From Niveispirillum lacus (GTDB lineage: Bacteria; Pseudomonadota; Alphaproteobacteria; Azospirillales; Azospirillaceae), in the NCBI RefSeq assembly GCF_002251795.1, contig NZ_NOXU01000032.1, positions 1-64,000 on the forward strand: DNA of 64,000 nt, given 5' to 3'. Of this stretch, positions 28,672 through 31,107 are shown piece by piece. Below the pieces are notes generated by a model, which did no database searches, was not told the DNA's origin, and saw only the letters and a program-made list of their open reading frames with translations. Each line of letters starts with the position of its first letter. Position 1 is the stretch's first letter. The position numbers and the translations under genes are program-made.

Positions 28672-29691
28672 ATGACCGGGCGTATCGTGTGTTTCGGTGA
28701 ATTGCTGATGCGGCTGACCGCGCCGGGGCGGGAACTTTTGCTGCAAAGCCCGCGCCTGGATGTCACCTTTGGGGGAGCGGAAGCGAATGTTGCCGTCTCC
28801 CTGGCGCGATTCGGCTGGGACGCAGCGGTTGTCTCCACCCTGCCCGACCAGGGGATCGGTGAGGCCTGCCGTGGCGAACTGCGCCGTCATGGCATTGACA
28901 CGCGCGGCATTCAGATGCGGCATGGCCGTATGGGCCTTTATTTCCTGACTGTTGGTGCCATGCAGCGCCCCTCGGAGATCATCTATGACCGGGCCGGGTC
29001 GGCCTTTGCCGTGACAGAGGCCGGTGCCTATGACTGGCCCACCCTTCTGCACGGTGCGGGCTGGCTGCATGTCGGTGGCATCACGCCCGCCGTCAGCGCA
29101 GAGGCGGAAAAGGCCGTGGTGGCAGCGGCGGAGGCCGCGAAGGCCGCTGGGGTCAAGGTCTCCTTCGACTGTAACTATCGCGCCAAGCTGTGGGCTGACC
29201 GGGGCGGCGACGCGCCAGCGGTGTTTGCCAAGCTGGCATCCTGTGCCGATCTGATGTTCGGCAATGAACGTGACATTGCGCTGATCCTTGGGGCGGATTT
29301 CCACGCCATCCCGCTTTCCGAACGGTTTCTGGCGGCGGCGGAACTGGCATTCAAGACCTGGCCAGGGCTGAAATGGCTGGCTTCCACCATTCGCAGCCAT
29401 CATGACGTTGACCATCAGGAACTGACGGGCCGCGTGGCTGCCCGTGACCACCGGGTGCATTATTCGCGCACCTACAAGCTGAACGGCATTGTCGACCGGA
29501 TCGGCGGCGGCGATGCCTTTGCCGCCGGTCTGATCCATGAGCTGGAGAAGGGCTGGGCAGCCGACCAGGCCATCAATTTTGCGGCTGCCGCCGCCGCGCT
29601 GAAGCATTCAGTGCAAGGAGATGCCAATCTGGTGTCAGTGGCCGATGTCATGAGCCTGGTGAATGAGGAAGGGCTGGATGTGAAGCGGTGA
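28672..29691 (+). CDS. kdgK: 2-keto-3-deoxygluconate kinase
   Basis: A 339-residue PfkB-family kinase that makes 2-keto-3-deoxy-6-phosphogluconate. It shows VCFGELLMRLTAPG and FGGAEANVAVSLARFG at the N-terminus, FDCNYRAKLW in the middle and GGGDAFAAG with catalytic D281. GGAAGGGAGAG precedes the ATG at 28672. It feeds Eda (24.8 kb). Its promoter carries the ACCGGT operators, so induction by hexuronates through the LacI regulator is the working idea. Confidence 0.92.
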   Translation: MTGRIVCFGELLMRLTAPGRELLLQSPRLDVTFGGAEANVAVSLARFGWDAAVVSTLPDQGIGEACRGELRRHGIDTRGIQMRHGRMGLYFLTVGAMQRPSEIIYDRAGSAFAVTEAGAYDWPTLLHGAGWLHVGGITPAVSAEAEKAVVAAAEAAKAAGVKVSFDCNYRAKLWADRGGDAPAVFAKLASCADLMFGNERDIALILGADFHAIPLSERFLAAAELAFKTWPGLKWLASTIRSHHDVDHQELTGRVAARDHRVHYSRTYKLNGIVDRIGGGDAFAAGLIHELEKGWAADQAINFAAAAAALKHSVQGDANLVSVADVMSLVNEEGLDVKR

Positions 29692-29830
29692 GGGCCTTGC
29701 CCTCACCCCCTTTCCTTTGAACCCCAAGCCATGCGCGCCGCGCAGTCTTGCCCCGGCGCGGCCCCCGGATGGCTAAACAGTCCGTACGCAACTATATTAC
29801 GCCCATCGAAAACAACGATGGAGACACATC

Positions 29831-29926
29831 ATGCGGTACTTTTTCCTGCTTCCTATGCTGCGGCTCGGTGCTTTTTCCCGTTATGCCGCTTCGGTTGAGC
29901 AGTACCCGGCCAACCGCCGTGATTGA
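29831..29926 (+). CDS. Candidate 31-residue leader peptide
   Basis: A 31-codon ORF with GGAG 7 nt upstream of its ATG. The peptide begins MRYFFLLPMLRLGAFSRYAA and ends ANRRD, rich in Phe/Leu/Tyr and Arg. It overlaps the leader hairpin GCGGC...GCCGC, so ribosome position would change the RNA fold. I suggest it senses a polyamine, arginine or ornithine through ribosome stalling. It could be a chance ORF. Confidence 0.45.
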   Translation: MRYFFLLPMLRLGAFSRYAASVEQYPANRRD

Positions 29927-30025
29927 GGCGGAAAGGCCTGCTTCTTTTAGCAGTTCCCATTTTTATCTCTGACCAAAAATCATCAGCCGGCCCCCGTTTT
30001 TGGACCGGCATGGTTGTCAGGACAG

Positions 30026-30057
30026 CGCCCCGGCGGGTACCCTCGCCGGGGCGTTTT
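30026..30057 (+). terminator. Intrinsic terminator in the agmatine deiminase leader
   Basis: A 10-bp perfect stem (30026-30035 with 30044-30053) with an 8-nt loop and four T. It lies only 36 nt before the agmatine deiminase start, so it either ends the kdgK transcript or works as an attenuator for the downstream gene. Confidence 0.8.
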
Positions 30058-30093
30058 CATGTCTGGCCCGTTTCTGAACCCAAGGATCGCATC

Positions 30094-31107
30094 ATGACCA
30101 CTCCCGCCGCCGAAGGCTTTTACATGCCCGCCGAATGGGCGCCGCATGCACGCTGCTGGATGGCATGGCCGGTTCGGGAAGAGACGTTCCCCAATGGCCT
30201 GCCGGCTGCCCGTGCCGCCTATGCCGAGGTTGCCAAGGCTATCGCGCAGTTTGAGCCGGTGACCATGCTGTGCCCCGACGGCGCATCGGCCGATGTCTCC
30301 CTGGCCTGCGGGCCGGGCGTATCGGTGCTGCCCGTCCCCTGTTCCGACAGTTGGCTGCGCGATAATGCGCCCAGCTTCGTGGTTAACGGCAAGGGGGATG
30401 TAGCCGGCGTTCACTGGGGCTTCAACGCCTGGGGCCGCAACTATGACGACTTCCAGTTGGATACGCAGGTCGGGCAGCTGATTTTAGAGCATCAGGGGCT
30501 GAAGCGCTTTGCGGCCCCCCTGGTCATGGAAGGCGGGTCGTTCCATGTCGATGGTGAGGGCACCCTGCTGACGACCGAGGAATGCCTGCTAAATCCCAAC
30601 CGCAACCCGCTTCTGTCGCGGGCAGAGATCGAGGCGCACCTGTCAGCCCATCTGGGTGTTCGGCAGTTCATCTGGCTGAACAAAGGGTATGAACAGGACG
30701 AAACCGATGGCCATATCGACGAGATCGCGGCTTTCGTAAAGCCCGGCGTGGTTTTGACCATGGACACAGATGACAGGTCCGACCCGAACCATCCCGTGTT
30801 TCAGGACAATATCGCCCGATTGAAGGCGGCACGCGACGCGGCAGGCCGGTCACTGGAGGTTGTCACCCTGCGCACACCGGCACGACAGGAACAGCATGGT
30901 GTGCGCCTGACCCTGTCCTACACCAATTTTTACATGGCCAATGGCGGCATCGTCATGCCCCTGTTCGACGACCCGATGGATGCGGAAGCCATCAGCCTGT
31001 TCGGCAAGCTGTTCCCCGACCGCCGCATCATCCCCGTCCCGGCCTTGGACATTGTGCGTGGTGGCGGTGGCATCCACTGTATCACACAGCAGCAGCCATT
31101 GGGGTGA
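30094..31107 (+). CDS. aguA: Agmatine deiminase
   Basis: A 337-residue agmatine iminohydrolase of the peptidyl-arginine-deiminase-like family, converting agmatine to N-carbamoylputrescine on the way to putrescine. It has MPAEWAPHARCWMAWP, the DSWLRDNAP motif, GGSFHVDGEGTLLTTEECLL, DGHIDEIAAF and the catalytic C329 in GGGIHCITQQQP. The ATG at 30094 fits the family start. It has no functional link to the surrounding sugar genes; the next gene converges with its stop directly abutting. No carbamoylputrescine amidase is adjacent. Confidence 0.92.
   Translation: MTTPAAEGFYMPAEWAPHARCWMAWPVREETFPNGLPAARAAYAEVAKAIAQFEPVTMLCPDGASADVSLACGPGVSVLPVPCSDSWLRDNAPSFVVNGKGDVAGVHWGFNAWGRNYDDFQLDTQVGQLILEHQGLKRFAAPLVMEGGSFHVDGEGTLLTTEECLLNPNRNPLLSRAEIEAHLSAHLGVRQFIWLNKGYEQDETDGHIDEIAAFVKPGVVLTMDTDDRSDPNHPVFQDNIARLKAARDAAGRSLEVVTLRTPARQEQHGVRLTLSYTNFYMANGGIVMPLFDDPMDAEAISLFGKLFPDRRIIPVPALDIVRGGGGIHCITQQQPLG

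Follow-up and report, generated by a model that had tools for sequence, protein, structure and literature searches.

A conserved M-X9-RLG leader peptide upstream of the agmatine deiminase family gene aguA in Azospirillaceae

In pyrBI-type and amino-acid attenuators, the formation of a terminator hairpin depends on where the ribosome stands on a leader open reading frame (ORF), and such systems read the supply of nucleotides or of aminoacyl-tRNA, often via runs of codons. In alphaproteobacteria, a putrescine-making gene has a leader of its own, the Rfam speF leader (RF00518). Salmonella carries a short ORF, orf34, before speF; the passages cited from the paper on it (PMC6386406) call its Arg codons at positions 12–13 rare, report pausing there without arginine, and describe a hairpin immediately after the stop codon that is blocked by a ribosome at the stop. 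According to them, regulation persists in orf34 versions that carry frequent Arg codons; codon rarity therefore does not appear essential there, and the Arg residues seem to weigh more. For a DUF1127 gene of Sinorhizobium meliloti, according to the abstract of a further study (PMC12218461), translation of an upstream ORF governs the premature termination of transcription ahead of the following gene.

Here, we describe a leader ORF in a window of 64,000 nucleotides from Niveispirillum lacus (NZ_NOXU01000032.1, positions 1 to 64,000), for which a first-pass annotation made from the letters had proposed a classical attenuation layout before an agmatine deiminase gene. The features of the locus, in order, are the following:

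29770..29798, + strand: P1, leader promoter-like element, TGGCTA (29770–29775), 17 nt, TATATT (29793–29798)
29803..29821, + strand: 5' UTR hairpin CCATCG..CGATGG, overlapping the Shine–Dalgarno (SD) motif; −7.9 kcal/mol, z −5.8
29831–29926, + strand: leader peptide ORF, 31 codons, ATG start, RLG as residues 11–13
29908..29949, + strand: T1, hairpin with the leader stop TGA (29924–29926) in its loop, followed by a U-rich tract
29986..30009, + strand: H3, hairpin GCCGG..CCGGC just 5' of the P2 −35; −12 kcal/mol
30014..30043, + strand: P2, aguA promoter-like element, TTGTCA (30014–30019), 18 nt, TACCCT (30038–30043)
30025..30057, + strand: T2, GC-rich hairpin plus TTTT, overlapping P2; −28.3 kcal/mol
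30094..31107, + strand: aguA, agmatine deiminase family

The leader peptide reads MRYFFLLPMLRLGAFSRYAASVEQYPANRRD, and its ORF is preceded by an SD motif, GGAG, at 29820–29823. The downstream gene had been taken for an agmatine deiminase. Its family is clear (PF04371, 407.4 bits), but against the agmatine deiminase equivalog TIGR03380 the protein reaches 371.2 bits, just below the cut-off of 381.8, so its substrate is likely and not certain. Relatives of aguA occur in 81/82 genomes of the family Azospirillaceae at E ≤ 1e-60.

We built a profile from 15 leader peptides and searched the family genomes, scoring at most 97 candidates in each. As raw genome counts, uncorrected for shared ancestry, profile matches were found in 58/82 genomes at E ≤ 3.2e-5, with a single match in each. 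Every one of the 58 is located within 0.9 kb upstream of aguA and on its strand, and there are none elsewhere at that E-value. A rule devised after the first peptides were known, namely an M-X9-RLG ORF of 25–50 aa no more than 1 kb upstream of aguA, picked out 59/81 genomes (the same 58 plus G098; the upstream region of G103 spanned 892 nt), and 0/81 both on the reverse strand and in the 1 kb downstream. The small ORF with a good ribosome binding site that the first-pass annotation had pointed out is thereby confirmed, and the conservation before aguA that it proposed to look for in relatives is present: the amino-acid sequence is conserved, and the peptide goes together with aguA. By genus, the leader accompanies aguA in 11/11 genomes of g1, the genus of the window, 40/44 of g12 (Azospirillum), 5/5 of g8, and 1/1 each of g3, g10 and g13. 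The remaining 22 of the 81 aguA-bearing genomes lack it, among them all 18 of seven other genera.

A set of named loci gave the leader in 23/79: Niveispirillum, Oleisolibacter, Aerophototrophica, strain AAP38, and Azospirillum including A. brasilense and A. lipoferum. Those that lack it, 56 named loci, include four Nitrospirillum, Azospirillum sp. B4 and TSO22-1, A. halopraeferens and all those named Pseudomonas; for 3/79 (L158, L187 and L219) the sequence covered less than 1 kb upstream. In a sample of 385 genomes of the class, where at most 20 candidates per genome were scored and weak cases may be missed, 10 matched the profile at E ≤ 0.01, five of them family members. The best of the five non-family matches (G106, E 7.1e-5), which we inspected, sits in a gene context that is unrelated by eye, and the sample held no convincing leader outside the family. 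Within the genomes sampled, the leader is seen only in Azospirillaceae.

The leader occurs once in the genome of N. lacus, where a search found no further copies (next best match E 0.077). It is unannotated in bacteria related to Azospirillum, with the polyamine gene aguA close downstream, and four out of four plasmid records with a leader match list no gene there, in a gene table that is incomplete. The gene upstream of the leader is a pfkB-family sugar kinase in the window; in Azospirillum sp. B510 an unannotated leader lies between polyamine ABC transporter genes (ATPase, then permease) and aguA. The upstream gene thus differs while the leader stays with aguA, a link that outlasts the change. 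The titles and abstracts searched, a set outside which most subscription journals lie, hold no description of the leader.

Several side observations concern the surroundings. G002 (C22:353374-354280; also L154, Azospirillum sp. RU38E) carries a gene that by eye is GNAT-like acetyltransferase between leader/T2 and aguA, and has the P2/T2 element twice, the second copy before aguA. A dispersed repeat, CCCTCAAACGCCGGGCGG (at most one mismatch), is found in 8–21 copies in each of six genomes, with eight copies in N. lacus, and its reversed pattern in none of the same six; in G003 a copy separates the leader from aguA (C210:1459-1476), and in G005 another follows shortly after aguA (C76:10254-10271). 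An inverted repeat, CATGCGC-GCC-GCGCA, at 29730–29744 of the window, 5' of P1, has by eye comparable spaced palindromes in several relatives and is a possible regulator site. Far from the locus, 52283–52355 matches the suhB/mmgR small RNA family RF00519 with 55.1 bits (gathering score 41).

Conservation of the peptide is concentrated at its start, residues 1–13 being far better conserved than the tail. R11, L12 and G13 are present in all 58 profile matches, on which invariance was counted, the profile favoring RLG and not demanding it, whereas the ORF rule itself requires it. In 56 distinct ORFs, R11 is written with six different codons (CGT 21, CGG 11, AGG 11, AGA 10, CGA 2, CGC 1), and the target of selection is therefore the amino acid. 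The length given for this gene type is 30–45 codons; RLG stands at a constant distance from the start codon and 17 to 32 codons come after it, a combination of fixed motif and variable tail that points to the nascent chain or the codons rather than to a folded protein. The tail holds 2–8 Arg, with RR in 58/59, perhaps partly because it encodes a GC-rich hairpin arm.

The choice of codons around the motif is skewed as well. CGC stands at R11 in 1/56 ORFs, compared with 166/239 of the Arg codons after codon 13 (Fisher p 1e-22, ancestry uncorrected), and in aguA of the same groups it accounts for 59–73% of Arg codons. Mean usage of the chosen codons at positions 10–14 is 0.316 of expectation, while the lowest of 315 sliding windows in aguA reaches 0.698. 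Elsewhere in the leader the ratio is 0.70 (codons 2–5), 0.76 (6–9), 0.65 (15–18), 0.65 (19–22), 0.80 (23–26) and 0.93 (27–30), codons 19–22 thus also being low (usage 0.333 against 0.51 expected). GC content is 0.51 in codons 4–16 and 0.69 in the tail, and this lower GC near the start may account for part of the codon rarity.

Promoter-like elements recur on both sides of the ORF. Chosen after the sequences had been seen, the P1 −35/−10 pattern, with the −10 starting 38–39 nt before the leader start, was found in 43/56 distinct upstream sequences and 33/1120 shuffles. The P2 pattern (TTG[CT]CA-N16-19-TANNNT, within 300 nt of aguA), picked in the same way, was found in 73/81 genomes, 65 of these matches having an 18-nt spacer, against 4/1620 shuffles and 0/81 in each of two controls. 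It is present in 58/59 leader-bearing and 15/22 leaderless genomes, and is retained by 8/11 of the leaderless aguA genomes G071, G074, G085, G088 and genus g2 (Nitrospirillum in named records). As a separate observation, in several of these an ABC-permease-like coding sequence reaches, by eye, close to aguA. A simple consensus scan of 29600–30200 reported no promoter and called neither T1 nor T2 a terminator. Judged from sequence, then, the gene type is defined by a conserved N-terminus with RLG at residues 11–13, non-preferred codons at 10–14, the link to aguA and the recurrent elements P1 and P2.

The structured leader with hairpins that had been proposed is supported, since the 302-nt leader folds better than 100/100 shuffles (z −3.75), and the individual hairpins differ in what relatives say of them. 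That of the 5' UTR is, by eye, lost as a hairpin in many relatives. T1, which the first-pass annotation had not singled out, has a predicted hairpin at 29908–29938 of −18 kcal/mol, equalled by 6/200 shuffles; in an alignment of 11 sequences from group A, 92.9% of cells are paired and two pairs are changed on both sides, but covariation is weak, with 31/500 shuffles reaching the score and one pair open in 6/11. H3 is equalled by 5/200 shuffles, and in groups A and B the predictions put hairpins with different arms at this position, a purely descriptive comparison. T2 is the strongest: 0/200 shuffles are as stable, and in 15 sequences 98.7% of cells are paired (two unpaired), with two pairs changed on both sides and a covariation score reached by 0/500 shuffles. 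The four one-sided changes in T2 are without exception C-to-T substitutions of the first arm; they give G-U pairs and so fit an RNA of this strand.

T2, whose last T lies 36 nt before the aguA ATG (30094), is the strong terminator that had been claimed at this place. Its hairpin and TTTT stand, but it coincides with P2 and is missing from the output of the consensus scan. In the window the P2 −10 sits in the loop of T2 drawn as a 10-pair stem; in the 13-pair minimum-energy fold it occupies the loop and extends two bases into the second arm. T2 is therefore also a probable start region of aguA transcription, which probably begins at T2/P2. The first-pass annotation had held that transcription starting downstream of the terminator would speak against attenuation; the candidate start overlaps the terminator, and the objection partly applies.

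Beyond the window, terminator-like hairpins are unevenly distributed. They were found in 19/19 leaders of the Niveispirillum type and g8 (groups A and B), G012 having only a weak one, past P2, and in 7/40 leaders of g12; the 33 others retain the peptide, so leader conservation extends beyond any one terminator. Overall, 26/59 leaders have such structures, hardly a higher share than the 69/177 of shuffles, and we rejected intrinsic terminators as a family-wide feature of the leader. An excess of C over G between the leader stop and P2, considered as a hint of Rho, is slight in all three groups and not decisive. The leader stop codon falls inside a scored hairpin in 50/52 leaders and 38.75% of 5200 shuffles, but the aguA stop codons do so in 42/81, and as these score as well we downgraded the stop-codon hairpin as evidence; its presence over the leader stop is suggestive only.

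The resemblance to Salmonella orf34/speF appears to be one of layout and not of sequence, and no kinship was found. Judging by the passages cited above, both are short ORFs that precede a gene of the putrescine pathway and use uncommon Arg codons near codon 12, at 11 here and at 12–13 there, and both have a hairpin at the end of the leader, over the stop codon here and just past it there. The likeness to a stalling peptide that had been suggested thus holds for the avoidance of the common codon at an Arg near the position of the two in the speF leader, but not for the sequence: SpeFL/orf34 is a DUF2618 peptide (PF10940) with an HIRRT core, whereas 0/15 leader peptides scanned match any Pfam model at E ≤ 1. 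The downstream gene is aguA and not the ornithine decarboxylase gene speF. For speF, just one start site, 516 nt upstream, has been reported, whereas here a promoter-like element lies between leader and gene.

The Rfam speF leader, which the annotation had recommended as a search model, brought nothing: RF00518 has no match in the window at gathering, in 29300–30300 at E ≤ 5, or in the N. lacus genome, and as a positive control the model itself finds 3/76 genomes of the class. For the leader, other Rfam families gave no match at gathering either, the best sub-threshold one, Spot 42 (23.8 bits, cut-off 80), being taken as chance. The S. meliloti DUF1127 case (PMC12218461) is likewise an alphaproteobacterial leader ORF ahead of a gene; its abstract names C-rich codons at the start of the upstream ORF and mentions no amino-acid motif. 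Unlike pyrBI-type and amino-acid attenuators, the aguA leader is most strongly constrained at a single RLG in a fixed place. It shares with attenuators a leader ORF with a putative promoter (P1) and SD motif of its own before the gene. Transcription of the gene from the leader promoter alone is a further attenuator trait, against which P2 appears to speak.

The leader looks like a translation-based sensor, and the reading that we favor, tentatively and at somewhat less than an even chance, is that P1 separately drives a leader-peptide gene acting in cis, the position of the ribosome governing whether the P1 transcript ends or reads through into aguA. According to arginine or polyamine status, the ribosome would hesitate at Arg11 or while the tunnel holds the M-X9-RLG chain. 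Where it stands on the RNA would then decide whether the stop-codon hairpin forms and ends the P1 transcript; the terminating structure would be T1 in Niveispirillum, and might be other structures or Rho in Azospirillum. Otherwise, RNA polymerase would continue into aguA, adding to the output of P2. Pausing, switching, the ligand and the direction of control are steps that we infer. Against control by P1 readthrough, P2 would permit expression of aguA without the leader, and a T2 of −28 kcal/mol seems too stable for a switch. That M-X9-RLG might be a new short arrest peptide we consider unlikely; here a 13-residue chain would fill the upper tunnel, and agmatine, arginine or putrescine as co-ligand would, together with the uncommon Arg11 codon, stop the ribosome at codons 11–14, setting the fate of the P1 transcript through the P2-inside-T2 element into aguA.

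We rank P1 readthrough above three other explanations. The leader could be an independent small gene, whose P1 mRNA, for a trans-acting peptide or a dual-function small RNA, ends at T1/T2 while aguA, a mere neighbor, depends on P2 alone. The wide occurrence of P2, the strength and RNA-level covariation of T2, and the intervening gene and doubled P2/T2 element of G002 all agree with it. We nevertheless judge it rather improbable, as the profile matches keep without exception to the upstream side of aguA, the first 13 residues are far more conserved than the tail, and codon choice is constrained as well as sequence.

The simple attenuator of the first-pass annotation, with P1 as single promoter, T2 as the switch and aguA made only when T2 is overcome, has much the lower probability. 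The ORF, SD motif, hairpins and terminator do come in the classical order, and the pairs of T2 are conserved. But P2 overlaps T2, the test used detects no terminator-like structure in most g12 leaders, and no antiterminator competing with T2 stood out by eye; as aguA appears to have a promoter of its own, simple on/off attenuation is improbable. Last comes transcriptional interference, in which P1 transcription arriving at P2 would dislodge or block polymerase there, at a frequency set by leader translation and T1, so that the leader represses aguA. P2 does overlap the end of the P1 unit, and T1/T2-type hairpins precede or coincide with P2 in groups A and B, but interference is not known as the main role of a peptide leader, and we hold this reading to be about as improbable as the simple attenuator.

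The M-X9-RLG leader seems to be a new peptide family within a known kind of control, and its promoter-in-terminator layout seems unusual. As a peptide of the agmatine route that would be unrelated to the known speF leader peptide of Salmonella, and yet has an uncommon Arg codon at almost the same position, the leader of Azospirillum and its relatives may be a case of convergent design. Since its invariant amino acids go together with the avoidance of common codons, the idea of pausing is directly testable.
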